From Rugalucina vietnamica (taxonomy: Eukaryota; Mollusca; Bivalvia; Lucinida; Lucinidae), in contig OZ024875.1 in NCBI GenBank assembly GCA_964017185.1, positions 29,645,456 through 29,709,455 on the forward strand: a stretch of 64,000 nt of DNA, given 5' to 3'. Shown in pieces: positions 14,701 to 64,000 of this stretch; position 1 is the stretch's first letter; each line of letters starts with the position of its first letter. Made by a program: the position numbers and the translations under genes. Below the pieces are notes generated by a model. It did not search any database. It was not told the DNA's origin and was given only the letters and a program-made list of their open reading frames with translations.

Positions 14701-17700
14701 AGAGACTAAGGGATTTTTATTTTCATTTGATTATGACGAAATCCGTCAAGATGACAGTCCCAAAACAAGGTCGCGAGACTTATATTTGTTAACACAAGCA
14801 AAGAATCTTCGTAAAAATTACAATGGTGGCACATGTATAGCTTAAATATTCTTGATAAAGTGAAAATAATGTTGTGGCACACCCTAAAGAAAATACACGT
14901 ATCTTCTAATAGATCTTTATTATCGTGTATCAAATATTCTGATAAAGAAGGTCTTTGAAATTACTTTACGGTTTCAGTTTTATTATGGCTGTTCGTGAGA
15001 GATAATTGCAGCTGTTACATACCTCACACCACCTAGCCCCGCATTTAAAATCCTGGCCCCGAGGTTATAATTTATCCTGCTCATTAATGTTAAAATGCCA
15101 ACAATTGTTGGCATTTTAACATTTATGAGCAGGATAAATGACTAGATCTTGAGTTTTGAACCTGAATTTTCCACGATTTTTGACCATTTCAACATTTATG
15201 AGCAGTTGAAATTTCATGCTCAGCTCAGCTGAGCTTGAAAAAAGTTTTATAGCATTGGGGCCTGGTTCCACTGCGCTTTATCGCTTAGGATAGCTCTAGG
15301 ATTGTCTTAATATCAATTTGGGGGCATTTCTTTGACCCCGATATGCGAATTAAGAAAGCAGAAATACGTTGGAAAGCATTTTACAAATTTTGCATACGCA
15401 GTCTTATCAATACTTTTAAAATAAGACAATGGTACAATTACTTACGATTCAGTGGGACCGACACTTAACTTGTTCATAATCCTGAAAGAAACGAATGAAT
15501 GTTTGTGTATTTTCTCAGATCTGAACGACGTTGCTGGTGAATGTTTCTTCGTCTTGTGCCAAGAACAAAACCAAAAATCTAAAATGTTGTTGTCAGCATG
15601 TAGGAAAGGCACTGTTGATGTAAGTAGACAAATCGAATTCGGCGTTTGACTATTTTTTAAATCTCTTTGTTCTTTGCAAAATGTTATCTGTATATACCTG
15701 ACAATGTCCTAATTTTCTTTGACACCGACTGTTTAACTATACAATGTCGCTCAGTAATGATCACACATTATATATTACCTTCTGCAGCACATTATGGCAT
15801 CATGATGAATTAAAAATAAAACTGTGAACATATTAAGGCCATACCGCGGTTTCGGCTACTTAAGACTCTTCAGTGACCCTATAGATTTGGCAACATGCAT
15901 ATTTCAACATAGTAGTCCGTACAAGGACTAGTACAATCCAAATGGGGCCAAATATATTAAAACTTTGGTTAGAAAATAAATTTAATAGTAATTTTCTGAT
16001 TTCTCAGAAGTCTCATTTAAAGGTCTTTAAGTCGACAAAGACCGATATAATATAAACTTTACTAAAAATGAAACGATCTTTCTTGTAAGATCATCTGTGT
16101 CTTTATTAGGTGGTAGAATGTCTAGTAGAGATGGACAGCGACGTTAATGTTGAAGAAGATGGGTGTACGCCGCTCTATTATGCAGTTTGTAATGAAATGG
16201 TTGATATTGTGACGGTACTGCTCAAACATGTGAGTGTACATTACGAAAACTTGCCCGTGCAATAAACAGAGATTTTTTAAGCTTTAAAAATTATCCATTT
16301 TCAGCAGAAAAATGTTGATATTTTTGTTATGTTTTGCTCAAAACATAGATTGTGGGTACACGTTAGAACCGCCTCGGCGAGGCGGTTCTAACGAGTACCC
16401 ACAATCTATGTTTTGTAGTAAAAATAAAAAAAATAGGAATACCCTTGCATACCCCAGTTTTGCTGTATAAAAGTGGGGTTTAAGGGGGTATTCATGGCAC
16501 GGACCTGTTTTCATGATGAGTAAACTAAAATGTTTATCATTTTCATACTTTACTGGTTAAACATGAAGCTATTTTATCTTGTCTTGTAATTTTACGGAAG
16601 TTGTTTTAAAGTAGTTCGTTAATGTAGAAGACGGCTTTATGCTTTTCTATCATGCAGTTTTTAATAAAATAGTAGATAGTGTAACAATAACAGGTAAAAT
16701 ATGTGTTATTAATTTTACATGTTAAAGTACATGTATACATGTAAAGCTGACTTAGTATCTGTGAATAAACTGTTAAAAAGCTGTTCGTGTTTGTTTTTGA
16801 CCGTTGGTATTATTCCCTTTCATGTTATCTGAAAATCATTTCAATATGTAACACTCATAGATATGACGCGAGAAGGTTTCCGACCAGGTTCGACGCAAAC
16901 CAGCCTGTACATTTACAGGAAAAATCTAGAAGATTGAACTTTCGGATTTAGGAAGAAGAGGAATTCTACTATTGTCCGAGTGACGAAAATAAAGGCGCTG
17001 ATCAGCTGTGCAGTTTCTGCACAGCTGATCTGCGCCTTTGTTTTCGCATAGGTAAAATCCTGTTTTCTGATGACGCGGCTCATGTTTTACAGGATGTTAG
17101 GGACTTTTTACCAGCATTAAAGAAGAGCCTCGAACTTGAAAGCCACACGATTACCGGTCTCCTACTACGGCAGATTGGTTATGACAAAGAGGGCAAGTAT
17201 TGCTTTACTGATTCTCTATTAATTTCACTTTCATGATATCAACGTGGTTTTGTTTTCATTTAAGAGCATTTACTTCATAATAATATGAGCCGCCTCATGA
17301 GAAAACCAACAATCTGCATATGCGAAAACAAAGACGCAGTTACCGCGAAGCTGATCAGCGCCTTTGTTTTCTCTACTCGGATAGTACAATTCCTCTTCTA
17401 CTTAAAGCCGAAATTTCGAGCTTCTAGCTCTTTTCTGTGCTTGTACAGGCCGGTTTGTGTCAGACCTGTTCGGAAACCACATTGTTGGTTTTCCCACGAG
17501 GCGGCTCATATTTGCGCTTCTGCAGCTAAAGAAATGCAAGTTGAGTCAGAAATTCGGTGTTTTTAACCATTTTGCAACCATAGAACATCTGCCGTATACC
17601 AACGATATTAAAGTCCACGTATCTTTTGTCTCCTTTAGGTTAGTGGGTTTCATGTTATTGAGTTTATCATTTTCTATTAGGCCTCGTTTTCTTTGACAAA

Positions 17701-20700
17701 GTAGGTTTCTCACAGAAAAGAATGCTCGTGTAAATTCAATTTTATGGCGAAGTTTCATTGTCAAATATCTGTGACAAAGGTAAGCGAGCTAAGTAAAGTA
17801 ATTAATCTTTGCTGTGTGTGAACGCAGACTCATTGCCAAAGTTTCTGTGACAAATAATCTTCGCCAAAGAAAAATTGCCCGTGAATACCAGACTATAATA
17901 AACCAAAATGAAGAGCTTTTTAAACGAATTAAATAACTTGCGCGCTAGTGCAGCTTTGGAAAAGCTTTTTTTTGCAATGTTGTTAGATTTGACTTTCACT
18001 AAATGAATTTCATCCCCTGTGAAAGCGGTCATTTAAAATGTGATCAATATACACACCACATTCATTCATTGTCCAATATTTTAATTTAGGTGGCAGTATT
18101 ACCTGGAGCTCGTTGGGACTTGAGTCAGCTCAAGTGGACTGGATACTCGCCAGTCTTACCAGTCCATTGACTCCTGAACGGGGAAATGGTAAACAGCATT
18201 TTCATCAGGAAAACATGTCCGTGTAATGTATTCCCCCTTTGAACCCCACTTTTATACAGCAAAACTGGGGTACACGTATGCAAGGGTATACCTATTTTTC
18301 TTATTTTTGCTCCAAAACATATATAGATTGTGGGTACTCGTAAGAACCTAACGTGTACCCACTATCAATGTTTTGAGCAAAATTAAGAAAAAAAAAAACA
18401 AAACAATTTTTTCAGGTTAAAATTTCCAATTTCTAAAGGTAAAAGAATATCTGTTAATTGCTTGGGCAAGTTTTCGTAATAGTCTGTTTGTTAATTAATC
18501 TTGCTTTCAACTTAAAACGTTTTGCTTTAGTCAGACAAAATACAAAACTGGACCTTTGAAAATAGTGAAAATTAAATGTGTAAATGATTAAAATATTCCA
18601 GCGTATTGAAATTAAGAAAATGAAGCTCATCGTTTTTGTCAGTCTATTTGGTGACTACTCGTCTCTTGGCAAAGGGATGAAAAGCGATTGCTGTGGATAA
18701 TTTTAATGGTATCTTTCATACATCTGCAAGCTTTGTCATGGAGTCGATAAGAATTTTACTAACAGTTTACCATTGTAGACACTGAGAAGCCATACTTAAT
18801 GAAGCTGAAGAACAGCGAAAAGAAACGACAAAAACGAAAACTGGAATACTCAAAAAGTGACCCAACGGTACGACGGCCCCGCCCACGGTTAAGGCACGCC
18901 AGTAGCTCGGCTAGCATGACAAATGCCAGCGATAACGAAGAAAGTCCTGTCGTTCCGATGACAGCCGATGGTAACATGATTGATTTTCATATTATATTGA
19001 GCCTGTGCGTGAGAAAACCAACAATTTGGGTTCCGACCAGGTCCGACAGAAACCGGGCTGTGCACTCACAGAAGATGGTTAGAGGCTGGACATTTTGTAT
19101 TTAAGTAGAAGAGGGATTGTACTATCCGTGTAGCGAAAACAAAGGCGCTGATCAGCTTCGCGGGTTACGCGAAGCTGGTCTGCGCCTTTGTTTTCGCCTA
19201 TGTAGATTGTTGGTTTTCTCACACACAGGCTCAATTATACTTTTACTGTGTGAACCATTCGGTATCTAACAGCATGTTTCGTTCTTACTTTTTTATTTTA
19301 ACTTGGTTTTTGCACTAATACTTTTATCCTCTCTTCTATCTTGTTTAATTTTCATTTTGTGAAGCTTTATATTCTGTTCTGTGCTTTTCTGTGTTGGTTA
19401 GCCTTACCTTTCTTTTTCAATCAATTTTCATTAACGATATATGAGCCGCGATGCGAGAAAACCGGGGTTTCCGACGAAGTCCGACACAAATCGGACTGTA
19501 CAGTCATAGAAGCAGGCTAGAGGCTTGAAGCTTTGGCTATAAGTAGAAGAGGAATTGTACTACCCGAGAAGCGAAAACAAAGGCGCTCATCAGCCTTTGT
19601 TTTCGCATAGTCAAAAATCCGGTTTTCTCGCGACGCGGTTCATATAAATATAACAGACCACATCTTTATTAATTAAACACGCATATACTGTGTATATAAT
19701 TACGATTTTTTAGGATTTAGTTCAAAACTAAATAACATCCAAAACTATACTCCTAAAAAATTCTAAGGTCCACTATATTTCCATATATCGCAATGTTAAG
19801 GAACCCAAATTAAACCGATATTTAATGGACATCCCAAAGGACGCAAAATAGCCGTTTCATTTGCATTAATTTAGGTATTGTCCCAAAGTAACTGTCAACA
19901 AGACATTTGAAAAAGGAAACGCCATGCCAAAGCCCATAGAACAGTTTTGGCATTTTTCAAAAATCATGAAATTACTGCATTTTTCTGAAATTCCATAGAT
20001 TCTTAAAAACGTCAATCTAGAATGCATTGCGACAAATGTTGTTTGTGTGAAATTCATGTTTTGCTCGTGATGGTCATGTTTGAGCTAATTTTGAAAAAAA
20101 AATGCATTTTTAGCAAAATTTAAGATTTACAAAAACATCTATCTGGACTTTGACATGGCATTTCCGGTTTCAATTTTGTTGTGTCAGTAACTTCGAGGCA
20201 TTAAAATTTAAGATAATGCAAATGAAGAAGGGATTTGGTCCGTGGGGATTGGCATAAAATTTTAGTTGAACTGGGACTGCATTATAATTGAGCCTGTGCA
20301 TGAGAAAACCAACAATTTGCATAGGCGAAAACAAAGCCGCAGATCAGCTTCGCGGTAACCGCGAAGCTGATCAGCGCCTTTGTTTTCGCTACACGGATAG
20401 TACAATCCCTCTTCTACATATAAATTTGTACAGAATTTCAAGCCTCTAACCATCTTCTGTGACTGTACAGGTCAGTTTGTGTCAGACCTGGTCGGAACCC
20501 AAATTGTTGGTTTTCTCACACACAGGCTCATATAATTACAGTACGATAATTGAAAAAATACAGTGGCCCTTAGAATTTTTTGAGTATAATAATAATAATA
20601 ATATAGCTGCATAATGCCCTTTTGTGTGTCGGGCGTCAGAGTCTATAATGGCCCCGACTAAAAGCTATTTATTTTAGTTGGTTGGGTCCGGAGCTTCTTG

Positions 20701-23700
20701 TATGTTGCTTGGTCCACCGGGGTAACTGGTGTTTTTCTTTTGCTCCAGATTTTCAGTGATGTTGTTAGGCGCTCAGGGCTCTTCGTCGCCGGGCAGCTTG
20801 TTGTATTTGTGAGTCCTCGTTATTGATTCATCATGGACATTATCATGATGTATTTGTTTGTCCTTGATGATTCATTGATGAGTTAGAGATTAACCATAAG
20901 GACCGAACAACTTAGTAAATGTTGTGAACTTAGGATGAGGTTAGGCCTGTAAAACTAGTTTGAGCCGGCCGCCAGTTATTTTATATTAATGATCGTTCGA
21001 AGGCGACACTTCTGCGGTGGTTCTTAGCGACACTTCTGCGGTGGTTCTCATTGTTTTATGTCTCGGTGTTGAATTTTTGTGCTGTTTGCACCTTATATTA
21101 CATTTTTGTATTTTAGTTAAGTTTGTGTAACTGAGTGGCCGCCTGTTGTGAAAATAGCTGCATAATCGGCTTACGATAAGTACCTGATTGTTAATTTAGT
21201 TCTTTCCCACCTCGGCTATTGGAGTGGGATTTTTTTCTGATTGTGTCATTTCCTGATCATTGCCTACTTTTACCTTTTTGCAGTGAATGTAAACGAACCC
21301 TTACAATTTAAAGTGAAAAGGGATTTTCGAAGATCTATAAGTGTGGAATCATTCGCTCCTAAAAGTTCCCCAATACAAATGTCCAGGCGACCAACTTTGC
21401 CAACAATCACTGCTGGGAAAAGTCAGTCCCCAGACGAAGGTAACTCGTATGAGCCGCCGCATGGGAAAACCAGCTTTCTGCATAGGCGAAAGCAAAGGCT
21501 CAGATCAGCTTCGCAGTAACTGCGAAGCTGATCAGAGCCTTTGTTTTCGCTACACGGATAGTACAATTCCTCTTCTTTCTAAATTCAAAATTTCCAGCCT
21601 CTAGCCATCATCTGTGACTGTACAGCCTGGTTTGTGTCGGACCTGGTCGGACCCGAATTGTTGGTTTTCTCACTCACAGGCTCATCTGATTTCATAAAAT
21701 ACCGTACCTGTAAATATGTTATTTTCCATTACCGATGTAGCTCCTTCTGCATTATAAAGATTTAACCAGGATCTTCTTTAATACATACATACATACATAC
21801 ATACATACATACATACATACATACATACATACATTTAAAATCAATAATACGCAATAAAACACGCATGCATGAATTTGATATCTATATTAATTTCACTGAC
21901 AAGATCGCTATTAACTACTTGATCATTGCATACTTAACTTTGCTCTGAAACGATAATTGTGCTCGTTATTAAAATGATTTTACTTCATTAAGTTATTTTA
22001 TAAAATCCATTAACTACCTTTACTATTCTAGGAACATGACAATTGTGTTCATTATTAACATGGTTTTACTTTATTACATTATTTTTGTAAATTCATGGTG
22101 CATAAGTCGTTAAGTTATTTTATAAAATCCATTAACTACCTTAAACTATTCTAGGAAAATGAGATTTGTGTTCATTATTTAGATGGTTTTATTTTATTAC
22201 ATTATTTTTGTAAATTCATGGTGCATATTATTTTCTAAGAACGCATTGTCATCAAGACCATTATTTCTGACAAACGATTTTAAACTTCAATTATCCACAT
22301 CATATTCCTATTTTTAATTTTCGGTGTTTTACATGGGAAAGTAGTCGAAATGTTTTTATCTATATAAATAATCGACAAACATATTGTTTTTCCTTTTAAG
22401 TTGATCAGATTGAAAGTGTTAATAATAAACCACGGCCCCCAGCCCCGGGGGAGGGCGGCGGATAGCCGTGGAAATTGTCGGGGCTTTGACCACAGTTTTG
22501 CCACGGCAGTGCGGGGAAAATACCCGGGCTTTGCTTTATAGAGGTGAAAAGGGCCGTGAAATGAAAAGATAGTAGGCCGCTGGGGAAAACAGCAATCATT
22601 TTACCAGCGAGCAGTCCCCGCATTTAGGCTTTTAGTAGGGATTTGCTGGATCAAAAGGCAAAGTCCCCGCTATTCCCCGGGGCAGGGGAAATGACTAGTG
22701 CTTTAAAGGCACGAATAGTGTCATTTTTAAATTGTGTCAATTTCCAGATTTACCTGTGTTTGTGATGTCAATCAGTGAAGCGGAAGAGTACAAGAAATCA
22801 ACTCTTACCGGAGCCAATGTACCATATAACCCCAGGGATCCTCGCCAAGAACATAAAGACATTAACAAGCTGGAAACATCTGATGGTAGTGTATTTGCTT
22901 TAGCTCTTCCGAACACTCAGTCTTTATAAATGCCAATCTAATATACATGTAGTATTTGATTTTAATTGATGTCCGTTTTCGAAAAAGGCTTTTATCTACC
23001 GTAAGTCTAGATTCAAAATTTATGCATGTATACGAGGGGTGATCGGAAAGTACGTATAAAAATGCTGTAAAATAAGTTTGCGTCAACCGATTGATATGAA
23101 ATTTAATACAAATAAACATTGATCCTTTTGTAATTAAATGCCATTCTCATTTTAAAACAATGACGTCAGACGTTCATGCACGAGGCAGCGTAATGACGTC
23201 ACTTCACGTGACCCGGCGCACCTGTACCCCTGGGTTGACTTTGTAGGTGTATTTGGGTTGGGTTGGGAAAGTTGGTCGACATTTTTTAATGGAAACTAAT
23301 TTTCTAACATTAATTGACCATTTTTCAAGAACATACGACATTCTGATGCTTTATCTACTAATACGGTGAAATTGAATTCAACAGGTTAGCGTAAAATATG
23401 CAAGAACGTCGATTTCAATTTGTAAACTTAAATTCCACAACATACAACCTGTTATATCGACACCCTGTATCCGCATGCTAATGTTATTGTTTACCACTGG
23501 AAATGTTGATGGATTCGTACGTAAAATGACAATTAGCAGACGATTCTGAGAATAAAATGTCATTTTTTCGCTTATTTCTACACGATCTGTCCCTTTAAGA
23601 ATACCTGAGGAATCTCACTCTTACCTTTATCCTATTGCATGTACTTTTTCCCCGATTTACCTTTTTAGAGGGCACTATAAAGGGAAACAAGACGCTGACG

Positions 23701-26700
23701 CTGTAAGCAGGCGCCCAAAGTTCATTTCAGTCCTAATTAGTTCTACGTTATGTAAATATACCCAGGGAATATAAACTACCAAACTCAAAGCTTTGATTGT
23801 TCTTAAAAAGGCCGTTTTCCAGTTTTCATGTTATTGTTTTCGCGAGTAGGTGTTATTACATTTCCCTGCTAAGTTATTACTTCTTCGGGTAAAAAATAAC
23901 AAATGATAAGGTTTCGTAAAATATGCAAGAACGTCGATTTCAATTTGTAAACTTAAATTCCACAACATACAACCTGTTATATCGACACCCTGTATCCGCA
24001 TGCTAATGTTATTGTTTACCACTGGAAATGTTGATGGATTCGTACGTAAAATGACAATTAGCAGACGATTCTGAGAATAAAATGTCATTTTTTCGCTTAT
24101 TTCTACACGATCTGTCCCTTTAAGAATACCTGAGGAATCTCACTCTTACCTTTATCCTATTGCATGTACTTTTTCCCCGATTTACCTTTTTAGAGGGCAC
24201 TATAAAGGGAAACAAGACGCTGACGCTGTAAGCAGGCGCCCAAAGTTCATTTCAGTCCTAATTAGTTCTACGTTATGTAAATATACCCAGGGAATATAAA
24301 CTACCAAACTCAAAGCTTTGATTGTTCTTAAAAAGGCCGTTTTCCAGTTTTCATGTTATTGTTTTCGCGAGTAGGTGTTATTACATTTCCCTGCTAAGTT
24401 ATTACTTCTTCGGGTAAAAAATAACAAATGATAAGGTTTCCTACTGTTGATAGTGATGCCTTTCTATATTTAATAAAAAATGGGTGAGCATAAATCTCGA
24501 CTTTCTAACAGGAAATTGATGAAAGAAGACTGACTTTCCATTTATTTTCATTTAAGCGGTATATTGGGAATATTTTTATTTCTATATGTGTTTATTTTTT
24601 TGAAAACAACTGTGTGATTTTCGAACAGGCCCGACACAAACCGAACTGTACAAACATAAATGATGGCTAGATACTGGAAATTTTAGATTTAGAAAATCGA
24701 CAAATTGTACTATCCATGTGGACGTCGCGTCAGGAATTGTCTTCATATTTATCATGTCAAAATCAACGTAAATTACGACGTTGTTTTATTTGAAGGTGAA
24801 TAACTAAAGGTTTTGTTCCGAAGAGTACATTATGTCTTTAAAGACTTAGCTCCTGAAGGAGCTATATTTGTACCATTGTTTATTCGGTTAATGACCCCTA
24901 ATCATCCTTAGATCAAAGGACTGTCATAATGAGGTATTTATCACATTTTTGCAGGGAACAACAAAGAGACCCCCAAAGGATAATACCTTTAGTTCCACTC
25001 TTTATTGGTTTTATGCATGGTCCCTATTAACCTGTGCAATAAAACTGCCGCAGGCTACCTCCGCAATCGATATTGATTCTTCCTCTTTTTGGCCCCTACC
25101 TGTCCGCGAATTTTACAGACTACATGTACTCTGAAAGCTTTACCTGAAGTCGTTCTAGTCAACGCATTTAAGAATGCAAACATACGACAAATCCAGAATC
25201 ACTTGTGAAAACGCACGACGCTTCAACGTTAGATTTGGCAGAATAATTACAGAGCTATGGGCATTGGAATGTTTGTTAGTGCAGACCGTTGTTACAAGTA
25301 TACAAGTTGGTTTTTAGACAAAATCGCCGCGTAAATATATAGATGCCACGCTAAAATGCGACGTAGCAAAAAAGACATTCAACATCGATCGAATTGCGCT
25401 TTTCAAAACGAGTTTTTTGATAAAATTTGAGCACAATCCCACAACGAATAAACATGCTACACGTACACTCAGAATGTTATGATGACTTTTCCGGATGACG
25501 GCAACTTCAGAACAGCGAAAACAAAGGCGCTGATCAGCTTCGCAGATACTGCGATGCTGATCTGCGCATTTGTTTTCGCATATACATGTATACAAAACGT
25601 TGGTGTTTCCACGACGGTACTCATATAGGACCTCTGGTCCTATAAATACTCACCTGGGATATGCGACCTAAGCTGACCTTGGTATAAAATAGGTCAAGGT
25701 CATCATTGGGGTCATGATGTATACAAACTTTGTAGAGCCGAAAACAAAGGCGCTAATCAGCTTGGCAGATACTGCGATGCTGATTTGTGCCTTTGTTTTC
25801 GCATATATACAAAACGTTGGTGTTTTCACGATGGTACTCATATAGGACCAATGGTCCTATAAATACTCACCTTGGATATGCGACCTAAGCTGACCTTTGT
25901 ATAAAATAGGTCAAGGTCATCACTGGGGTCATGATGTATAGAAACTTTGTAGAGCCAAAAACAAAGGCGCTAATCAGCTTGGCAGATACTGCGATGCTGA
26001 TCTGCGCCTTTGTTTTCGCATATATATATATACAAAACGTTGGTGTTTTCACGACGGTACTCATATAGGACCTCTGGTCCTATAAATACCCACCTTGGAT
26101 ATGCGACCTAAGCTGACCTTGGTATAAAATAGGTCAAGGTCATCACTGGGGTCATGATGTATACAAACTTTGTAGAGCCGAAAACAAAGACGCTGATCAG
26201 CTTGGCAGATACTGCGATGCTGATCTGCGCCTTTCATTACGAAAACTTGCCCATGCAATATACAGGGATTTTTTTAGCTTTGAAAATTGAAAATTATCAG
26301 CTGAAAAATTTTGATGGTTTTCTTATTTTTGCTCAAAACATAGATTGTGGGTAGACGTTAGAACCGCCTCGCCGATGCGGTTTTAACGAGTACCCACAAT
26401 CTATTTTTGGAGCAAAAATAAGAAAAATAGGTATACCCCTGCATACCCGAGTTTTGCCATATAAAAGTGGGGTTCAATGGGGTATACTTTTCACGGACAT
26501 GCTTTCATGATGTGTTTTCGCATATGCAAAACGTTTGTGTTTTGACAACGGTACTCATATATTGTAGTCAAAAAAGGGAACTACAGTACATATAACCTCT
26601 TTTGCATGGCAGATTACATTTCAGGCTATCACAATCACACATAACAGTGTTATTTGTGATTGTGATAGCCTGAAATGTAATCTGCCATGCAAAAGGGTAA

Positions 26701-29700: not shown

Positions 29701-32700
29701 GTATTTTGTTTAGAAAGTGATTGTCGCATTGTCTCATTTTATTTGTCTTGTTGTCATGTGTAGATGTCTGCGCCCATTTTGTCCGCTCCTCGAAGTCCCA
29801 ATCTTTTGTACAGAAGAAGAAAGTGTAGTATCGACTCAATTACAGGTAAATGAGCATGTGCATGACAAAACCGACAATTTGGGATTCCGACCACGTCCAA
29901 CACAAACTGGACTGTACAGTCATAGAAGATGGTTAGAAACTTGAAATTACAGATTTAAGATGAAGAGGCATTCTGCTGTCCGTGTGGCGAAAACAAAGGC
30001 GCTGATCAGCTTCTCAGTTACTGCGAAGCTGATCTGCGTCTTTGTTTTCGCATATGCAGATGGTTGGTTTTCATATGCTAATATCATTTTGCGTAAGGGC
30101 TTAATGTGTTCGGACTCATAAGTTAGGGACTTTTTGCCATTTGGCTGTCGGCATTCATTCATTCAAGACTGTTTGTAGATATTTTCGGGAATGTTAGGTG
30201 ACAATTATCAATTGCGGGTTTAATGAATAATTTTGGAAACCATAAACATTAGTTGACATGTACAAATGGCATTATAAAGATTCATTTAGAAAGTATAATT
30301 CTAATTTTTGTCAATGAATTTATTCTTCATTGATTCTATATTATTACAATATAATGCGCTTTGTTCAACTGGAGAAAATGCATATCATATACGTTTGCAG
30401 TTCAACATGTATTACCTACAACAAAAACACGAAGAATTTTTTTCCTATGAATAATCATATTAAGGCCTTCTGAATATAAAATTAGAAAATGTTCTTTTTT
30501 GAAGTTGCGAGAACTGAAAAGTCAATGAGTCTCAGACTGCAAAAAATGTAGTTGTAAATATCATTAAATGGTTTCGAATTTCCTTTTGAAGTTTAATATA
30601 TACCGCTTAATTGAATAATTCTTTCAAAAAATATTTACTCTTGCAGACATTGAAGAAACTGTTTCACAAATTACCAACCAGAGATTACAGAATTTGGATT
30701 TGTCTGACAATAAGATATTATCAGTTGACTCACTCGCGTCCAGCCATCTTGAAGCCCATTTTGAAAAGCTTGAAAAGCTAGATATCAGCGCCAACGCACT
30801 CAGAGAAATACCGGAGTCAGTTTTTAAGGTAACACATAGTTAAACAGTTATAAACAGGCAAAACTCAGAAACTGTCACATTAAAGTATCGGTCTCAATCA
30901 ACGAATGAAACAGCAGTGGCACTGTAGCGTATATCCCAAAAAGCGCCGGGCGTGTTGACAAAAATGTAAAATTCAACATACACCAGGAGCACTCCAGGAG
31001 CACGTCGGAGACACGTTAGAAGCGCGTTACACGCGCGTTTTGTACACTTGGCGTACCTGATTAGCTATACAACGGTGAAATTATGGCAGTTTAAATGATT
31101 TAAACACGTTTAAGCAGAACATCAGTAATAATAGGTATGTCTACTTTGAGCAATGGCTTCAAATGCCAGACGAGGGTTAAAATAGTCTATTTAAATAATC
31201 CTGCCATTGCACAAACAAGGGCTTCATTTAAACCATACACATCAAAATCTCTGTCCGTTTCATTAGGTAATTATTTTAATGCAATAAGTAGTCCACTTAA
31301 TCTATACTGTCTTTTCTTTGCTGACAGCCAATCTATTATAGACGCTGCTTCTGTTATAGAATCTGCCGAATCTCCAGATCTTGGATGCGAGATGTAACCA
31401 ACTTGAAGAGTTTCCTTCTGGTGCCTTACAGTGTAATAATCTGAAAGAATTGATATTATCAAGAAACAAAGTAGGTCATAAACAAATACTTTATTTGATA
31501 GTAAATGTTAAGTATTTGTCACGGTATCATATAAAAGGACGGCATGTGATTTGTAACATATTTATGCACAGTCCCTAGTGAGTAACCACTGGCCTTAAAT
31601 AACAGTAAGCCGTTTAATCTCGGAAGCTGTACTCGCAAAGCCTAAGCAGTTTCTCTGTTGTTAATTCGTTTCTGATATACTTATTAGAAGAGCGTTATTC
31701 GATTTGTCGAATACAACTTAATTGTCCATTCTTACATTTTTGTCCGTATTCTTTACCATTCTTTCACTGATAAATATTAAAACTTAATTTGTATTAATTT
31801 AGATTCCGGAGCTGATCTTAGAACATTTCAACTCGTCGATCAAAAAACTAGACCTTTCATACAACCAGCTAACAGCCCTGCCCAGCGGATTAGGAAATTA
31901 CCTACACGTTGTTAGGGAACTCATTCTTAACAAGTGAGCTCACGCTACGCATTACGAAAACGCGCCCATGTTATCATATACAGATTTTTCTTCAGTTGTA
32001 AAAATAAAAAAAAATTCAAAAAAAAAAAAAATTGGATGTTTTTAATTTAGAAAAAATGGATATTTTTAGCTCAAAACATAGATTGTGGGTACACGTTAGA
32101 ACCGCCTCGCAATCTAGGTTTTGGATTAAACATGAGAAAAATAGGTTTACCCCTGCAAAAACCTTTTTTTTTTCTATTTGAAAGTGGAGGCTAAGGGGTA
32201 TATATTGCACGGACATATTTTCCTGATGCATGTTCAGCATCGAACATCTGTTACAGCCTGACTAGAAGACACTTCAATGAATTTTCCAAATAAAACATAC
32301 AAATAATATTATAACCATAAAACAGCAACTGCAATATATGAGCAACTAAACGTTAGTGTTATCAATCGTCAACGACTGTAGTAACGTTGATCAGAATAAT
32401 GTTCTGGACAAGAAGCTAACATCTTAGCATTGTTACGTAAGTGACGATTGCATGACAGCAAGATGAACGTAAAAAATAAAGTTGATTTAAGAACTGTATG
32501 TTGTGATAACACACATGAGTTTGAATTATTCTAATTGAAGTGAAATTCTGAAAGACCATGATCATTTTTCAGCAATAATTTGATGGCGCTACCGGAGACT
32601 CCACTTGGCTTGAAGGAACTGAAGAGACTAGACATATCACACAATCAATTGGACTGTATTCCAGAAAAGTTCCTTCATACCTGCAGCAAATTGGAAACGC

Positions 32701-34862: not shown

Positions 34863-34901
<39 letters not shown>

Positions 34902-37900: not shown

Positions 37901-40900
37901 CAGGAGGTTGTCTGCCCCTGCCTCGGGGCTATATACATGTGCATGATCATAATATTCAAACATTATCTTCTCTGAATCCGCTTGGCCAATCAAAGTCAAA
38001 CTTTTTGTGGAGCATCGTTGGAAAGGGGCAATGAAAGTTTGTATAAATGGTCAAGATCAATGACCAAGATGGCCGCCATGGCTATAAAAAGCAAAAACCT
38101 GTAAAAATTGTAGATGCCCGCATGCCCATATATGGTAAAAACCCTTCAAAGAACTGCTGAACCTATTGCAATGAAACTTGACATGTAGCAATTAAGACTA
38201 GAGTACTCAATGTGTGTATAAATCATGATCCTGTAAAGACCTTGACAGATTTTACAGCAAGGTCAACATAGGTCACATATGCAGAAAACTGTTAAAATGA
38301 CTCTGAAAGGAAAAACTTTCAAGAAATGAGCAAGTGAACAGAATATTTATGAATTTGAAAAAGAAATTAAAAACAGGGGTTGTTCTGACCCTGTACTAGG
38401 GCTTAAACTATGTACTATGACCTTTATAGTCAAACAAGTTTATTGGTATATATCTTAGATCTCAGGTGAGCCTTTACAGGACCGGTGGTCCCCTGGTGTT
38501 TTATCAGATTTCTTTAGGATGTTTCTTTTTTTCTCCCCAAAACAGCTCGTTTAAACATATTTATTTGATTAGTTGATAAACATACATGTTTAGAGATATA
38601 AATACACAAACAATACAAACGGGATTTGAACGAAAGCTTTAAAAACTTCTTATGTTCAATTCCCTATCATCGTTAAACTGTACCAAACGATTAATCGACA
38701 ATTAATAGCGTTCAACAACAATTTCTATATAATTATGTGTCTTAAAATTGGCAAAATAATCATTTTTTATTACATTTCCTTCTTTGACTAAAGAAAGTTT
38801 TTTTTTTTTTCGTTTCCATCAGGAAAACATGTCCGTGCAATGTATAACCCCTTGAACCCCACTTTTATATAGCAAAACTGGGGTATGCAGGCGGTTCTAA
38901 CGAGTACCCACAATCTATATTTTGGAGCAAAAATAAGAAAAATATCAAAATTTTTCCACTGATAATTTTCATTTTTTAAAGCTTAAAAAATCACTGTATA
39001 TTACATGGGCAAGTTTTCGTTATGCTAGGTATAAACGATATGAGAGGCGATTTAGCGACGACATCGACAAGTCAACGGGCGGAAAATCAGTGGAATATAC
39101 CCTCAGCACATGGGACTTTGCTGGACAGGAAGACTTCTATAGCACACATCAGTGTTACCTATCCAACAGAGCCATCTACTTAGTACGTCGACTTCTGTCA
39201 AACAAACGTTAACACACTTCGTTGAAATAACCAAAGATAAAAGGGTCACTTGTAATACCATGCCTCATTTCTGATATTGAGTTTTACACATTACTTGTCC
39301 TTTTAACTTTTCTTATAAGCATTATACCTCTGAAGTTAATATCCATTTGTGCAAATAAGGAACAATTTTCTATTTGCAGGTTGTTTTCGATTTTCGAAAG
39401 GGTGTATCCGATCTGACATCTCTGAAGATCTGGCTGGCTAGCATTCACTCAAGAGCTCCTGGTTGTCCGGTTATAGTTGTAGGCACACATAAAGACAAGG
39501 TCTCGCAAGGTATTCAGCTATTTTTCGACAATCTTCAATCAGGATAATATAATCGTGGTAGACGTAGGTGTTTAGCTGCATTTTGATGTCAAACTTACAT
39601 GATGGTTTCGTAAATCTCTTAAATACAGAAATACCAAGTGATGTTATTTGATAAAAAAGGGTTTGCCTCGTATATAAGTCACATAACGTCTTGTTTATTA
39701 TAGAAGGCTACTCATCAAGATAATTTTTAGATTCGGAACCAAGTTATACAAAAATTGTTGGAATTCCGATGGGTATAAATTGCGCCCCTCTCGTACCTGA
39801 TTTATTTTATACTGCTACGAAAGAGATTTCATTGATTCTCTTAACCATGACAATCAAGTTGATGTTATCGAGGCCTTTAACTCGACTTCTAGGTACCTCG
39901 ATGACCTTTTGAACATTGACAATCCTTATTTTGAAGGCATGGTCAATAAAATTTATCCACCTGAACTACAGTTGAATAAAGCCAATACCACAGATACCTA
40001 AGCCGCTTTTTAGATTTTTACATCTTTCTGTTGCAAATGGATTTGTTTCTTCTAAGATTTATGATAAACGCGATGACTTTGATTTGGTAAAGTAAATTTT
40101 CCGTTTTTGGATGGTGACGTTCCTCGTTGTGCTTCGTATGGTGTATACATTTCGCAACTTATATGGTTTGCTAGAGTCTGCAATTATGTAGCGGACTTCA
40201 ACGCGCGAAATAGATGTTTAACAGCCAAACTTCTCCAGCAGGGCTATCGGTATCATAAACTTCGAAAAACATTGTCTAAATTTTATCGCAGACACAATGA
40301 GTTGATTTCCAAATTTAATATTGGGCTAAATACGCTTTTACGTGAGGGCCTTCGGGAACCAGAATTTTATGGTGACTTGGCTTACAAATTTAAGAAACTT
40401 ACAGGAGGGAATGATTTTTCTTTTCAGTTCAGAAAAATCATAACACGTTACAGACGTATAGGTTATAACTTGAATGTTATGCGACAGTCTGCATGCTTAG
40501 TTTTTAACCCAATCATGGTTGATAACTATGCTGCTGCCTTTAATTGCACGCCGGTGGGTCGGGCGTCAGACTCTATGATTGCCTCGACACAAAGCTATTC
40601 ATTTTAGTTGGTTGGGACCGGGGCTTCTTGTTTGTTGCTTGTCCCACCGGGGTTCAACTTGTGTTTTTCTTTTACTCTGTGTTTCAGTAGGTTATTCGGC
40701 GCCCAGGTAACTCCATCGTCGGGCAAATTACTGAATCTGTTGAGTCCTCGTTTTTGATTCATCAATGTGATTATCATGATTTATTTGTTTGTCCTTGATG
40801 ATTTATTGACTAGTTAGAGATTCAACACGAGGACCGAACAACTAACTAAATGTTGTGAACGACTGCAGAAGATGAGGGTGAGGTTAGGCGCCTGTAAAAC

Positions 40901-52900: not shown

Positions 52901-55900
52901 ACATCATGATACAAAGGCACTGGTCATACATGCAACTTGAATTATGTTTATCGTTTTTTTTTTTGTTTTTTTTTTTGTTTTTTTTTTTTTTTGTTTTGTT
53001 TTGTTTTGTTTTTTTTTTTTGTTTTTTTTTTTACTATTTACATTTACAGATTCATGCTAAAATATCAGACTATGGAATAGCAAGATTTTCAGCTTATGAG
53101 GGCTTGAAGGCACAGGAAGGCACTCTAGCCTACAGAGCACCAGAAGTTATCAGAAAAGAAAATTACTCTTTTGAGGTAAGCCATAAAGAATTATACTTAT
53201 TTTCATAATAATTGTCATATTACCAAGTGGTTGAACTGAAAGTAAATGTGTTTCAAAGGTTGATAATAAATGGATTCTTTAGAGTTTCAGTGTAGTGACT
53301 ACTTGACATGTGCTGTAATCGAAGATAGACATGAAATAGCAAAACGGTTTACATTCATTTATAAAAGACACACGTTAAGAAAACAACGGAAGTGATGCGA
53401 TGTTAATAGCATTCGAAGTTGGTAATGTTACGTTCTTGTCGTGTATGCCAGTCAAACATCCAGAACCTTCCCACCCCTTTGTGATTATTGCTCTTAATTG
53501 GTTCTATTGTAATTCGACAATGTGCCAATTATGTAAATATATTCCGTAATGAATGTTTTCTTTACATTATAATGTCAAACTCGGTTTATTGTGGTTTGGC
53601 AAACCAAGTTCTTTTTTGTAAAAGCCTCTGTTCCTTCTAACTTTCACTTTGTCTTTATTAGGCTGATGTTTTCTCATATGGTCTTACAATGTACGTGATG
53701 CTTGCTAGACACCACCCCTTTGATCAGCTGGAATCCAAGGGTGAGATGGACAGAGCCATTGCTGAGGTACAGTTTTGTAGTCCACTATTTTAAAGCCCAG
53801 AAAGCATAATATAATTTATGAACCACCCCTTTGATCAGCTGGAATCCAAGGGTGAGATGGACAGAGCCATTGCTGAGGTACAGTTTTGTAGTCCACTATT
53901 TTAAAGCCCAGAAAGCATAATATAATTTATGAACCACCCCTTTGATCAGCTGGAATCCAAGGGTGAGATGGACAGAGCCATTGCTGAGGTACAATTTTGT
54001 AGTCCACTATTTTAAAGCCCAGAAAGCATAATATAATTTATGAACCACCCCTTTGATCAGCTGGAATCCAAGGGTGAGATGGACAGAGCCATTGCTGAGG
54101 TACATTTTTGTAGTCCACTATTTTAAAGCCCAGAAAGCATAATATAAAACTTATGAACACTATGTAAATCAGTAAAAAGTACAAGTAGGCAATGATCAAG
54201 AAATGGCGCAATCAGAAAGAAATTCCCACTCCACAAACCGAGGGGTGGGAAAAAAATAAAATGACACTTAGGTACTTATACCAAGAAAACATATCGTAAG
54301 CCGAGTGAGCAGCTATTCCCCAATAGGCGGTCACTCAGTTACCCGAACTTAACTAAAAATATCAAAACGTACATAGGGCTCAAACAGCACAAAAATTCGA
54401 CTCCAAAACACAAAACAATTAGAACCACAACAGAAGTATCGCCTTGGAACGATCAGTAATAAAAAAAATACTGGGGGTGGGGCTTAAAAAGGTACAAGTA
54501 GGCAAAGATCAGGAAAAGGCACAATCAGAAAAAGATTCCCACTCCAAAAACCGAGATGGAAAAAAACCTAAATTAACAATCAGGTACTTATACTATGAAA
54601 ACATATCGTAAGCCGAATGGGCAGCTATTTTCCCAATAGGTGGCCACTCAGCTACCTAAACTTAACTACAAATATGAAAACATACATAAGGCGCCAACAG
54701 CACAAAAAATTTTAAACACCAAGACATAAAACGAAAGAACGACCACAGAAGTATCGCCTTGGAACGATCAGTAATATAAAATTACTGGCGGGCTTAAATC
54801 GATTTTACATGTACTTACATGTAACCTCACCCTCAGCTTCTGCAGTGGTTCATAACATTTAGTTAGTTCTTCGGTCCTCTTTGTGAATCTCTAACTAGTC
54901 AATGAATCATCAAGAACAAACAGATAACTCACGATAAATATCCTGATGAATCAAAGGACTCAATTGATTCAGTAAGCTGCCCGACGATGGAGATCCCTGG
55001 GTGCCAAATAACTTACTAACTCCGGAGCAAAAGAAAAACACCAGTTGGACCCCGGTGGGCCAAGCAACAGACAAGAAGCTCCGGCCCCAACCAACTAAAA
55101 TGAATAGCTTTAAGTCGGGGCCATCATAGAGTCTGATGCCCGACCCACCGGCGTTCAATTAAAGAATGTAGTATAGTAATCAACCATGATTGGGTTAAAA
55201 ACTAAGCATGCAGACTGTCGCATAGCATTCTAGTTATAACCTATACGTCTGTAACGTGTAATGATTTTTCTGAACTGAAAAGAAAAATCATTCCTTCCTA
55301 TAAGTTTTCTTAAATTTGTAAATCAAGTCACCATAAAATTCTGGTTCCGAAAGGCCCTCACCTATAAGCGTCTTTAGCCCAACATTATATTTGGACCGGT
55401 TTTATGCCTAGGTCACACTAGGGCTTACGTACGCAGCGGACGCTGCGGATAGGTGTTCCGTATCTGTCCGTCCTATCCGTAACGATTCGTATCTCATCCG
55501 TAATGTCCGTAACTGTACGTATCGTATCCTCAGGGCGCGGTAGATCCGCGGGCAAATTTTCATAACTGTCAAAAATGCATGCGCGGATGGACGATTGGTA
55601 ATGGTAGGCAATGGTACGTAACTGAAGGCATTTATTCGAATCTGTCCGTATCTAATCGCATCTAAACGTATCATTCCGCGATCAAGCATTTGTTGCGGAT
55701 CGATACTGTTACATACGTGTTGTTTCGTTCGGTTGCGGTCTTTGTCGTTTATACACACTTTTCGATACAATTTAATACGTCCAGATACGAACACGTAATG
55801 TTACGGTTACACAGCATGACACACGTATGAAAACGGAATCAAACCAGGATGCAACTTGAACAATGCTAATAAGCGTGTGGCTGAGCCCTCTAGAGCTGAG

Positions 55901-58900
55901 TGTTTGGGCATAACATAATCTGTATCCAATGCTTGAATGAATCATACAAGAACGTTTCTGGAATATATAGTCTCCTTGACAAAAATGTCCGTCATTTTTC
56001 TATTATACAGGTAATTTATTTATTTAAGGATATCCATAATTCATTTATGGATATCCATAATTCATTTATGGATATCCTTAATTCATTTATGGATATCCTA
56101 AAATTATTAAAGATATCCATCAATATTTTGGATATCCTAAAATGAATTATGGATATCCATAAATGAATCATGGATATCCATAAATGAATTATGGATATCC
56201 TTAAATGAATTATGGATATCCATAATTGAATTATGGATATCCTTAAATACATTTTTGGATATCCAAAAATCGAGATGAATTATGGATATCCATAATTCGA
56301 TTTTTGGATATCCAAAAATCGAATTATGGATATCCTTAAATCAGCTCATTTAAGGATATCCTTAAATGTGTTTTAGGATATCAAAAAATAAGCTTGAATT
56401 TAGGATATCCATAATTCGATTTTTGGATATCCATGATTCTTTTTTTTTTTTTTGATATCCATAATGATCTGATTTAAGGATATCCATAATTCGATTTTAG
56501 GATATCCATAATTCATTTTAAAAAATATTTCTTTTCCATAATGATTTTTTCCGTGTAATACGCATGCGCTAACTTAAACTGATCGAAACGGAAGCCAACG
56601 TTAATTCAACCACACCGGATGCCTCCATTCTCTGACTAGGGAGAAATCATTATATCCCATAGGCACGTATGGGGTGCCGTTTTACTATTTATTTCCTATT
56701 TATGGATATCCATAATTCATTTTTGGATGTCCAAAATTCATTTTTGGATATCCATAATATATTTTTGGATACCCATAATTCTTTTTTGGATATCCTAAAA
56801 TCGATTTATGGATATACTTAATTCGGCTGAATATTGGATATCCATAAATTGATTTTAGGATATCCTATAATCGAATTATGGATATCCTTAAATAAAATCC
56901 AATTTTTGGATATCCATAATTCGATTTAAGGATATCCTAAAATCGGGCTAATATTGGATATCCATAATTCGATTTATCCTTAATTATTGTAGGATATCCA
57001 TAAATGAATTAAGGATATCAATAAATACATTATGAATATCCTTAAATAAATTATGGATATCCAAAAATAGGGAATAAATAGTGAAACGGCACTCCATAGG
57101 CACGTACATCATTTTTTGTGATTTAAGGATATCCTTAAATGAATTATGGATATCCTTAAATACAGTCCTATTGAAGGAACTCATTTATGGATATCCATAA
57201 ATCGAATTATGGATATCCAATATTAGCCCGATTTTAGGATATCCTTAAATCGAATTATGGATATCCAAAAATAGGATTGTATTTTAGGATATCCATAGTT
57301 CGGTTTTAGGATATGCTAAATCTATTTATGGATATCCAATATTCAGACGAATTTAGGATATCCTTAAATTGATTTTAGGATATCCAAAATGAATTATGGA
57401 TATCCAAAAAAGAATTATGGATGTCCAAAAATAAATTTTGGATATCGAAAAAAATAAGGACATCCATAATTCATTTCAGGATATCCATAATTCATTTCAG
57501 GATATCCATAATTATTATGGATATCCATAATTCATTTATGGATATCCATAATTCATTTTAAGATATCCAGAAATGTTAATGGATATCCTTAATTATTTAA
57601 GGATATCCATTAATGAATAAAGGATATCCATAAATAAATTATGGATATCCTTAAATGAATTATGGATATCCAAAAATAGGGAATAAATAGTAAAATGGCA
57701 CCCATAGGCACGTACATCATTTTTTGTGATTTAAGGATATCCTTAAATTATGGATATCCTAAAATACAGTTCTATTGAAGTACATCCATAACTCATTTAT
57801 GGATATCCATAAATCGAATTATGGATATCCAATATTAGCCCGATTTTATAATATCCTTAAATCGAATTATGGATATCCAAAAATAGGATTGTATTTTAGG
57901 ACATCCATAGTTCGATTTTAGGATATCCTAAAATCAATTTATGGATATCCAATATTCAGACGAATTAAGGATATCCATAAATCGATTTTAAGTATCCAGA
58001 AATGAATTTTGGATATCCAAAATGAATTATGGATATCCATAAATAGGGAATAAATAGTAAAACGGCACCCCATATGATTGTTGGTTGATGCGTTCATTTA
58101 CGGTGTAGATACGTTTGTGTTACGTTTTAGATACGGAAAGATTCGAATCAACGCCTTTATTTACATGTCATTACGTACTATTACGGATGTTTCATCCGTG
58201 CCCAATTTTTGACTTTTTTCAAAATTGGGGCGCGGATGGAATCGGACTTGCATATACAATACGTTAAGATACGAACATATACGGAAAAGATACGAATTGT
58301 TACGGATATGGCGGATATATACGAAAGGTCAGTCCGCAGCGTCCGCAGCATCCGGATGTGCTAGTGTGACTGTAGTTTGACTAAAACCTGCGTTTTCTTG
58401 CATCAAATTTCACCGTTATATACGCAAGAAAACGCAACATTACGTATCTGAAGGTGTATGTCTGTATCTAAAAGTAACAGATGGTATCGAAATGTATGTA
58501 GTCAAGTATCTTAACCGTATGTATTCGAATTTATCCGTAACTATCTTCGAACGTACCCGTATCTTTCCTGAACTACCCGTATTTATTCGTATTTAAAGGT
58601 AATAAATTCATTAAGAACCGTTAGCCCCGCCCACAAAATTTTGCGGATCGCTACGTATAGTATTCGCAACTATCCGCGGCATCCGTAAGCGCTAGTGTGA
58701 CCTAGGCATAACAGGGCCCTAACCTCACCCTCATCTTCTTATTTAGATAGTTGTTCGGTCCTCGTGGTGAATCTCTAACTAGTCAATGAATCATCAAGGG
58801 CAAACGAATAAATCATGATATAACCACCCCGATGAATCAAAAACGAGGACTCCACAGACTCAATCACCTTTTCGTATTTGTGAGGAAATAAAACATGAAC

Positions 58901-61900
58901 AGCAAGATGATTAGGGTTTTCCCGTGCAGCTAGGGCTGATCAGGCTGGCATCAATCTAAAAGCATAGATGACGAGAACCAGTAGACAAACATGAAGGATA
59001 AAGATAAATCACAACAAAATTGTCTTGGAACGGTCTGTAAATGAGCCGCCGCATGAGAAAACCAACAATTTGCATATGCGAAAACAAAGGCGCAGACCAG
59101 CTTCGCGGTAACCGCGAAGCTGATCAGCGCCTTTGTCTTCGCTGCATAGATAGTACAATCTTCTACATTATACCCTCTTCTTCTTAAATCCGAAATTTCA
59201 AGCTTTCAGCCTGCTTCTGTGACTGTACAGGTCGGTTTGTGTCAGACCTGGTCGGAACCCAGACTGTTGTTTTTCTCACGCACAGCTTGATTAAACTGAG
59301 AGCCATTTCTAAGTTGCGCAATACTCTCATCAAATACACACGCTGGATGATGTAAGTGGACAAAGTGCGGCCACCACAAATATAAAAGATCTTGTAAATT
59401 TGAAATTATTTTCAGGGCTTAATGGTTCCTCCTTTGGTCGGCAAGAATATACAAGAGTGGCCAGATATGCATGCCCTAGTTATGCAGTGCCTGAACCACG
59501 ACCCAGGCCTTAGACCAACGGTAAGGTGCAATGCTAGCAAAGACATACAAAATTGGTCTCTTCGCTTCAGCTCAATCTAAAGTCAGAAATTTTGAAAATG
59601 AGAAAATGAAACTGATCTGCTGCGCAGTAACCGCAATGTTGGCCTTGTTTATGTCAAGGGTAGCGTGTGGCTCCTACATATAATGTAGTAAGTATTGCCT
59701 GTTGAAATATTTCGTTATTTCAACACACCCAAAGACATGACCCGTCATTTTTGCTTGGCGCGACAGCGTCAAGCAATTGAAACGGAATGAGGATTTCTTC
59801 TCAATCTGTTGGGCTTTTCCTTTAATCTGTGGGGTTTCCCTTTGACATCCAGGGGCCTGGTTCCAGTCGCAATGTTTTTATACACTTCTTGCATAATAAA
59901 TCAATTGAAGACGGAAACCAGACTTGCTCTCCGCCGTTTTTATTAGGACTTGTGGGAAGAATGACGTACTTGGATCTAACGTTAAACATTTAGTTGGCGT
60001 TCTGGACGGATAATGCTAAAACCCGGAACTTTGTCCTAGGACCGACCAAGTACGAAAGCTTGAAATCCTCCGTAGCGAGGAAGTGTTCATGACCGATGCG
60101 ACCCATCGAGTTACCGAAAAACTCCACAAACCTACGAAAAACCACAACACACGGACAAATATTGGTATATACAGACTAGCCAAGCGTTCCTTTTAACAAG
60201 GAAAATTTATATATAATCAGGATAACTTGTCCGTGAAATATATGCACAATGACACCCAATATTAATGTAGTAAAACTGGGAAGTAAGGGGATATGCAAGT
60301 TTTCTTATTTTTGACCCTAAACATAGATTGTGTACAATCAATGTTTTGAGTAACGATTCGTAAAATATTACATATATTTACAACTGAAATATTTCGTTCA
60401 AAGCCACAGAAAATCTCTATAATACATGGGCGAGTTTTCGTATTTCTTTTCAGGCGGACAAAGCTGTTAAAATTCTACAAAGTCCAGATATGCTAAGCCT
60501 CCAGAAAATGGTTAATGTTTCAAAGTCAACAACCGTGGAGTGCTTTGCTGTCCAGTTGGTAAATATAGAAGATAAAAAGTAAACAAAATGAAATGAAATA
60601 CAGACAGTTAAAAACACTTCAAAAAGAAGATCTAAACCAATCCAAATAAACTACTGACAATAATTGTTGTATTAGACGTCGCGTCAGATGTTCGTGCACA
60701 ATAACGTTACAAGAAAAGATTGAAGCCGGTATCATAGCATCGCGGCTACAGTGCGTTCTAATGCGTGTTTTACATGCGCTTTATTTGCAATTTGTAGCGA
60801 CAGCTACGAGCATTAAAGTACGCGTCCGTATAGCAACACCAGCCACGTATGTTTTTGCCAGACTGTGATAACGCCTCGCAAGATGTTTTGTTCAAATAGA
60901 CGGGCTTGCCCTGTGAAAATAACGTAACGTAATGTAAAAACGACTGAAACGTCAAAATGTTACATTTTTTAAGATCACGGAAAATCAACACAGTTTTGTT
61001 GATAGTGAACGCAGAATCATTTTATATATATCACATGAAAGATTGGTTTAGGAACTTTAACGTCATGCAAATCAAAAACTAAAAAGATGTAGTCTGACAT
61101 GAAAATTATGATACGGAACAAACGACGTATGGAATTTTATCTAAAAAAATCGGTAGTGTTACATTTTTTAAGATCCGAAAAATTCTACGTTTTAATTATT
61201 TTCAATTTCTGAATCGAATTTATTTTCATACAGCGTGAATGCGCATTTACGGAACTAAACGTCCATATAAAAATTTAGTAATTTACTATTTCATATTTGT
61301 ATTTTATAATACAAACAACACACTACCTATAACTTTTCACACTGAACCTGACATTTTCGGACCTCCCGAACAAGATGCGGTTGTATCTCTAATATTTCAT
61401 CTTCTGGCTTCAGCTTTTGGCGGGCTTTCTATCAACAAAATCACTGCAAATGTGTGTCGTTACGTTGCACAAACACTTAAGATCGCGATTTTCGGATCGT
61501 TTTCATCGAAAATAACGGCTAATTTTATAACGCTTACATGACGTTATTAGCTTTTTTTGATCATTCATTCGCGGTGTATTCAGTATATAATAGGTCACAA
61601 GACATATCAAACGTGCACATGATCTAAAAGCTGGTTTCAAGATCTTTATTTTGATGTATTTTGCATACCGCTACTTCAAAAAATGTTGACATGACAACAT
61701 TTTAGCACCAAGAAAGTGAAAAATCGCAAATTGTGCCTGAACATCTGACGCGACGTCACAATCATCATTCTGGAGAAAAAGATTCCAAAGGATCAAACAT
61801 TTGTACTTCATTTGTTTTGTAATGTTACAACTTACTTGAATACCAGTAATACTTAAGCCTTTAACACGTTTCTGTTCGCAAATTGCTCGGATCCAATAAT

Positions 61901-63069: not shown

Positions 63070-64000
63070 AATTATTTGATTTTCTTTTTTTCCCGACTAG
63101 TTTCGGTGCATTACCTTTGTCAAGGGACATCAATAAACAACAATGGAGAATGATGACATCAACGTCACACGACGTCAATGACAACGACGTCAAAAAATGG
63201 CAATGACGTTGGCGTAAAAAATGGTGATTCCATAATAATAAGCACGCAGTTCAAGAAAACAGGATCTATGAAGATACATAATTACAGGCAAAATGCAATT
63301 TAAAAAAAGCTGAATAAAAATAAGGCCTGCAATAACTGTTTTAGGAAAAACATGCTAATAGTTAAAATAATACTTTGGAATTCATACCATTATGAGAAAC
63401 TGTATCTAAAACATGCATCCAAGTAGCTTCTTTTAAAAGCCTTTTCCAGTCATTTGTAACTCTATCTATTGGCATAAAAGAGAAATCTTGAATGGAGTGT
63501 CCAGCAGAATTGAAATGTTCAGAAACATTTGTGAATGTATCGGGAAAATGAACAATGTCATATTTATGATTGTTCATACGATTTGCACATTTCTGACGGG
63601 TCTGTCCGACATACTGAGCCTTACATTTTTTACATGTAATCAAGTATATTACAGATGTGGAAGTACATGAAAGATCATAGTTTATCTTATGTACTGATGC
63701 TGTGTTTGTACTGGTGAAACAGTCCGACTCATTAATAGTGGAACAATGACTACATCGCTTCCTATTTCATTTAGTAACATTGAATGAAGCAGTTTGTTTG
63801 CCCATTTTTGAGTGAACTAATATGTCATGGATATTAGTAGGCCTCTTGTAAGCAACAATAGGTTTCGATTCAAATAGACGACGTACACTTTCACTGGCTG
63901 ATATTTTAAGTAAACCCCAGTACTGATTGATAATTTTACGAAGGAGTCATACGGGTCCCCATTGCAGTTCCAAGCCTCTGGATATAATCTTCATCATTAA
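63070..64000 (-). mobile_element. Penelope-like retroelement C-terminus (GIY-YIG endonuclease)
   Basis: Minus-strand frame 63362-63643, open further upstream, reads ITCKKCKAQYVGQTRQKCAN, then FNSAGHSIQDFSFMPIDRV and WKRLLKEATWMHVL. This is the GIY-YIG nuclease found C-terminal to the RT in canonical Penelope-like elements (no LTRs). Upstream minus-strand sequence to 64000 continues the inter-domain region in degraded form. Downstream, 63100-63135 contains CTAGTTTCGGTGCATTACC, the 3' part typical of these elements. The copy is broken and cut by the window edge. Confidence 0.8.

Follow-up and report, generated by a model that had tools for sequence, protein, structure and literature searches.

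Transposable elements (TEs) in mammalian introns are reportedly scarce near exons, with zones of 50–100 bp concerning all copies of short interspersed nuclear elements (SINEs) and DNA elements (PMC3088655). The insertion sites of introners are reportedly biased to nucleosome linkers (PMC9860276). The present report concerns S, a repeat family of the lucinid bivalve Rugalucina vietnamica, as found in a stretch of 64,000 nucleotides of contig OZ024875.1 (positions 29,645,456 to 29,709,455, or G000:C7:29645456-29709455 in our numbering), referred to below as a whole as the window and taken from a genome of 1.09 Gb in 47 contigs. S is a very abundant family resembling miniature inverted-repeat transposable elements (MITEs), and its copies show a real excess at the exon edges of an LRRK2-like gene carried by the plus strand of the window.

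S copies and splice junctions in the LRRK2-like gene

The peptide spliced from the window exons matches PDB entries for LRRK2 chains at E ~1e-90 and is collinear with them across the LRR and ROC parts. Exons were picked by eye on the basis of homology and splice signals, with several boundaries placed by hand, which resulted in a model of 47–51 exons (lists of 47, 49 or 51 were used depending on the analysis), fewer than the 59 given in a preliminary description of this DNA. The stretches holding the exons at 31803, 39029, and 60454 align to PDB LRRK2 chains, and the exon ending at 18188 was placed by its open frame and splice signals only. The shortest intron in the model is 197 nt long. The output of a home-made gene finder, amounting to 233 exons, was dropped as over-prediction.

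Both blastn and a profile located seven copies of S in the window. They are listed here together with four exons that they adjoin.

10921..11199 (-), S copy 1, closest modelled junction 199 nt away, thus not edge-proximal
16110..16230 (+), exon, judged ankyrin-like on inspection by eye, adjoining S copy 2
16239..16518 (+), S copy 2, 8 intron bases past the donor at 16230 (GTGAGT), 5' end toward the exon
18203..18480 (-), S copy 3, 14 intron bases past the donor at 18188 (GTAAAC), 3' end toward the exon
26235..26512 (+), S copy 4, closest modelled junction 1671 nt away
31803..31934 (+), LRR exon of the LRRK2-like gene, adjoining S copy 5
31950..32228 (+), S copy 5, 15 intron bases past the donor at 31934 (GTGAGC), 5' end toward the exon
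38813..39024 (-), S copy 6, with an internal deletion, 4 bases ahead of the acceptor at 39029
39029..39182 (+), ROC-domain exon of the LRRK2-like gene, adjoining S copy 6
60216..60442 (-), S copy 7, a diverged copy, 11 bases ahead of the acceptor at 60454
60454..60558 (+), exon in which the kinase domain ends and which extends past it, adjoining S copy 7

Five of the seven copies have one end 4–15 nt from a modelled junction, and each of these five adjoins a junction at one end only. The preliminary description had placed five of seven copies almost at a splice site; this is borne out, at distances of 8, 14, 15, 4, and 11 nt, and the distances given there are correct to within 1–2 nt. It had also estimated that a given end would fall this close only a few percent of the time. 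Naive uniform placement gives 3.1% per insertion and P(≥5/7) = 6e-7. With a more conservative null, in which insertion is confined to the non-repeat portion of every intron, 0.47 S copies are expected at the edges (P = 1.2e-5). These window values are optimistic, since the cut-off of 16 nt was chosen after the data had been seen, and for the same reason the genome-wide counts given below serve as the independent test. A junction nearer to copies 1 and 4 is possible, because the model has fewer exons and one may have been missed.

The introns containing the five edge copies are 590–1636 nt long, with 302–694 nt of non-repeat DNA, and S fills 212–280 nt of them. At acceptor 39029 the T-rich stretch preceding the ROC-domain exon falls inside the end of S copy 6 (GTTTTCGTTATG, followed by CTAG outside the element); only these four bases lie outside S, so that S itself supplies the T-rich stretch.

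Genome-wide counts of splice words

In the genome-wide test, a splice word facing the exact 5' end of S was counted as a proxy for a junction, in bins of distance. The word GTAAGT is found in 6 of 45 donors (13%) of the LRRK2-like gene, and TTTCAG ends 10 of its 47 acceptors (21%). Facing the S 5' end, GTAAGT occurs 442 times at 0–20 nt, 318 times at 21–41 nt, and 173 times at 100–120 nt, the last value being close to the 151–168 expected from the frequencies of the word and of S ends. The control, outward-facing GTAAGT at 0–20 nt, gave 229 matches, some of them from one nested repeat. GTGAGT facing the S 5' end was found 251 times vs 126–140 expected from frequency, and the acceptor word CTGAAA gave 795 matches near S and 633 far from it. 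GTGAGT and the acceptor word point the same way as GTAAGT, though more weakly. Taken as proxies for junctions, these counts support an excess of S beside exons throughout the genome.

The gap histogram for S and donors peaks at gaps of 6–11, equivalent to 12–17 nt from the junction, among 97 of the 100 matches listed out of 442. Rows that were duplicates or came from nested repeats had been removed from such histograms (3/100 for S in-facing, 18/100 for S out-facing, and none for T, the family introduced below, or for the acceptor). If words are used elsewhere as they are in the LRRK2-like gene (GTAAGT in 13% of donors and TTTCAG in 21% of acceptors), then, over and above the far level, a donor would lie within 26 nt of some 5% of the exact S 5' ends and within 47 nt of another 3%, with 2% having an acceptor nearby; these shares are approximate.

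Splice signals were also scored around 55 complete S ends in a sample of 344 kb, consisting of the window, 8 neighbouring loci, and 20 scattered ones. In-facing donors within 40 nt were found at 5/55 ends (null 3.1%) and out-facing ones at none, whereas for acceptors the numbers were 10/55 in-facing (null 7.3%) and 6 out-facing; this scoring is only suggestive of an in-facing excess. Twenty young copies picked by similarity (L050–L069) have splice-like sites within 31 nt in 12 in-facing vs 6 out-facing cases.

Whether the places counted genome-wide look like exons was assessed on the 160 nt upstream of 20 GTAAGT+S places, taken in roughly even steps through the first 100 listed. The frame is fully open across the 160 nt at 8 of the 20, compared with 22 of 112 GTAAGT words in 28 loci (P = 0.03). 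When ten of the 20 upstream peptides were searched against Pfam, one gave a clear match (RRM_7, E 7e-12) and another (MNNL, E 1.5e-4) fell just under the cut-off. About 40–50% of the 442 GTAAGT+S places are expected to be chance matches.

Structure and abundance of S

S is about 280 nt long, starts with CATTACGAAAAC, ends with GTTTTCCTGATG, and contains an inner palindrome. It is devoid of a long open frame; in two copies that were checked, the longest frames measured 60 and 51 aa. Its terminal inverted repeats are imperfect (CATTACGAAAAC and CATCAGGAAAAC); in one copy CATTACGAAAACTT and CATCATGAAAACAG match at 10 of 14 positions, and 20 young copies have similar ends. Terminal inverted repeats, a length below 600 nt with no coding capacity, and a high copy number are all features by which MITEs are defined, and all are found in S. 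The profile yielded 42 matches in the 344 kb, with fragments counted separately; a whole-genome search returned 6692 first-look candidates, 40 of which were scored; and the ten exact 12-nt 5' ends found in 280 kb extrapolate, roughly, to ~39,000 per genome.

The bases flanking S are identical in 11 of 20 young copies, with ~7 expected from base composition, a weak signal of single-base duplication. S copy 4 sits in a T-like repeat unit whose neighbouring units represent the empty site, and its insertion adds one T. A single-base-like target duplication of this kind fits no superfamily known to us. Helentron/HINE-like elements have asymmetric terminal inverted repeats, lack a target-site duplication, and insert between T and T; in 20 copies of S, for which the flanking bases alone were compared, these bases are not a fixed TT. 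One copy, L069 (G000:C7:45640796-45641152), carries the same ~36-nt sequence on both flanks, which may be a long duplication or may reflect insertion between tandem repeats.

The T family and other features of the window

A second MITE-like family, T, is 236 nt long, has TGAGCCGC ends, and is represented by 85 copies in the 344 kb; queries with S do not match it. Of the 14 T matches in the window, the nine near-full ones were used and the five partial ones were omitted. The T copies located near junctions are as follows.

12739..12974 (+), T copy, 12 bases ahead of the acceptor at 12987
16873..17082 (-), T copy, 10 bases ahead of the acceptor at 17093, sharing its intron with S copy 2
18998..19233 (-), T copy, 27 bases past the donor at 18970 (GTAACA)
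21450..21684 (+), T copy, 10 bases past the donor at 21439 (GTAACT)

Three of the nine lie within 12 nt of a junction, where 0.49 are expected (P = 0.009), and when the two families are pooled 8 of 16 copies are at an edge, compared with 0.95 expected under the conservative null (P = 6e-7). The excess at exon edges in the LRRK2-like gene is therefore not special to S, as T behaves likewise. The histogram of T donor gaps, drawn from 100 matches listed of 947, is similar to that of S. Interspersed repeats form 46 blocks in the window, and for 11 of these an edge lies no more than 24 nt from a modelled junction, namely five of S, four of T, and two others.

Some further features of the gene and of the window were recorded. 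Three copies of a 111-nt tandem repeat, 99–100% identical, occupy positions 53600–54258 and duplicate the last part of an exon of the kinase domain; the peptide LESKGEMDRAIAE is found four times. At 5451–5860, in an armadillo-like region, three adjacent exon-like segments encode similar peptides (HLITVAIPAFRDNQE twice and FRDNEEIQIAATDALALLLKN once), constituting a local duplication. A long AT-rich array with a 21-nt unit around GGATATCC extends over 55982–58025. An interspersed repeat present in two copies (35553–36056 and 40083–40607) has open frames of 167 and 174 aa, and the minus strand of 63362–63766 contains a 134-aa open frame that resembles, by eye, the GIY-YIG endonuclease of Penelope-like elements.

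Origin of the edge excess

The preliminary description had offered three readings of the S copies at splice sites: insertion preference, selection, or an introner-like role. The excess itself stands, both in the window and in the genome-wide word counts, whereas the introner-like role finds no support. Insertion preference would be the likeliest cause, with selection as a rival. We infer, with a probability of about 0.45, that S inserts preferentially into the intron DNA flanking exons and that insertions into exons are purged. The transposition machinery would be biased toward DNA just outside exons, the favoured target being, perhaps, nucleosome-linker DNA on the flanks of exon-sized nucleosomes. 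Selection would then eliminate insertions in exons or on the splice signal, so that a peak remains between a few and a few dozen bases into the intron, and the T-rich ends of S might allow it to survive beside acceptors. The peak just inside the intron and the fall to the background level by 100 nt are consistent with such an insertion bias with exon hits removed. The linker mechanism is borrowed from the reported insertion bias of introners (PMC9860276).

A number of observations weigh against this reading. A step in GC content is absent at the insertions of 12 S and 44–45 T copies, and the nucleosome idea consequently gains no help from them. Taken together, repeats still cover less of the window within 100 nt of exons (5–13%) than deeper in the introns (17–21%), so that it is the edges of repeats, and not their coverage, that pile up at junctions. 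The genome-wide counts cover exact S 5' ends only, leaving old copies and the 3' end outside. The GTGAGT excess is about half of the predicted size, and its gap histogram, for 78 of the 100 matches listed, has no hump. The acceptor excess is small, its far value of 633 itself being higher than the 448–498 expected from frequency, and it consists in part of gap-0 matches (9/100 among the matches listed). For T, the word GTAAGT was counted 947 times near and 663 times far; the genome-wide excess of this family is equivocal, since frequency alone predicts ~790, with a wide error because TGAGCCGC was counted only 47 times. Outside the window no contrast between in-facing and out-facing splice signals was detected for T, in a small sample. 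Apart from the two named above, the Pfam matches of the upstream peptides are weak, that to fn3 (E 2e-3) being no better than the implausible matches alongside it. Finally, the strict donor AGGTAAGT faces S at 0–20 nt in 35 cases, or 8% of the GTAAGT matches, which is near background. This low count may be explained by the donors of the LRRK2-like gene, where AG precedes none of the six GTAAGT, a small sample; on this ground AGGTAAGT was set aside as a strict donor proxy.

Selection in place of insertion bias, an unlikely reading, would mean that S lands uniformly, that splice-adjacent copies are kept for their useful T-rich or branch-point-like ends, and that the others decay. The T-rich stretch that S provides at acceptor 39029 speaks for this, as does the S 3' end, TTTTCCTGATG, which contains CTGAT, similar to a branch point. 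The excess is, however, bigger at donors (442 vs 173) than at acceptors (795 vs 633), and donors gain nothing obvious from S; in the young copies, 91–95% identical, the 12 in-facing and 6 out-facing sites are too few to decide.

Just as unlikely is an artefact of motifs, in which S would favour targets that are strand-asymmetric and abound in GTAAGT-like words, with no exons involved. Such a target would account for AG before GTAAGT being near background and for a Pfam match above the cut-off in just one of ten upstream peptides. It accounts poorly for a GTAAGT excess that extends over at least 40 nt before decaying, for the accompanying rise of GTGAGT and of the acceptor word, and for upstream open frames being commoner than expected, and the sites in the LRRK2-like gene are real junctions.

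A rather unlikely variant is that a MITE transposition system targets exon edges directly, by way of splice-site-proximal chromatin or of co-transcriptional structures such as the ribonucleoprotein at the 5' splice site or R-loops, in which case MITE families would have built much of the sequence adjacent to splice sites in this genome.

It is quite doubtful that the pattern arose from short ancestral introns that grew by insertion, with early insertions falling near junctions by necessity. The introns concerned do retain only 302–694 nt of non-repeat DNA, and two families show the edge effect in the LRRK2-like gene. This possibility is, however, allowed for in the conservative null, under which the pooled excess of S and T persists; the drop in donor words from 0–20 to 100–120 nt would require introns under ~150 nt, whereas the shortest one modelled has 197 nt; and the S copies counted retain an exact 12-nt end, implying that many of them are not old.

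That S makes introns by entering exons with splice sites of its own is highly improbable: it bears terminal inverted repeats (TIRs) and adjoins exons, as many introners reportedly do (PMC9860276), but it makes up just a portion of an otherwise ordinary intron, approaches a single junction, and has the splice sites outside it at distances that vary, so that we do not regard S as an introner.

Comparison with known systems

S resembles MITEs in being small, in occurring in very many copies with terminal inverted repeats, and in lacking a long open frame, and differs from them in a distribution that peaks beside splice sites and in a target-site duplication that is at most single-base-like. A literature search retrieved no description of the S family or of a peak of MITEs at exon edges, which is not proof of absence. 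With TIR introners (PMC9860276), S shares the association of a TIR element with exon edges, the difference being that it does not form the intron and has no fixed splice sites.

Numbering tens of thousands of copies and showing a pattern opposite to the mammalian one, such a family offers a natural test of the interplay of insertion-site choice, chromatin, and splicing constraint, and also of how introner-like elements could start. The study of mammalian intronic TEs (PMC3088655) addressed the same question with the same measure, the density of TEs as a function of distance from the exon; there they are under-represented near exons, whereas S is over-represented. Judged by motif counts, the pattern of S is a genome-wide departure from the near-exon depletion reported for mammals (PMC3088655), with an origin that is possibly in chromatin.

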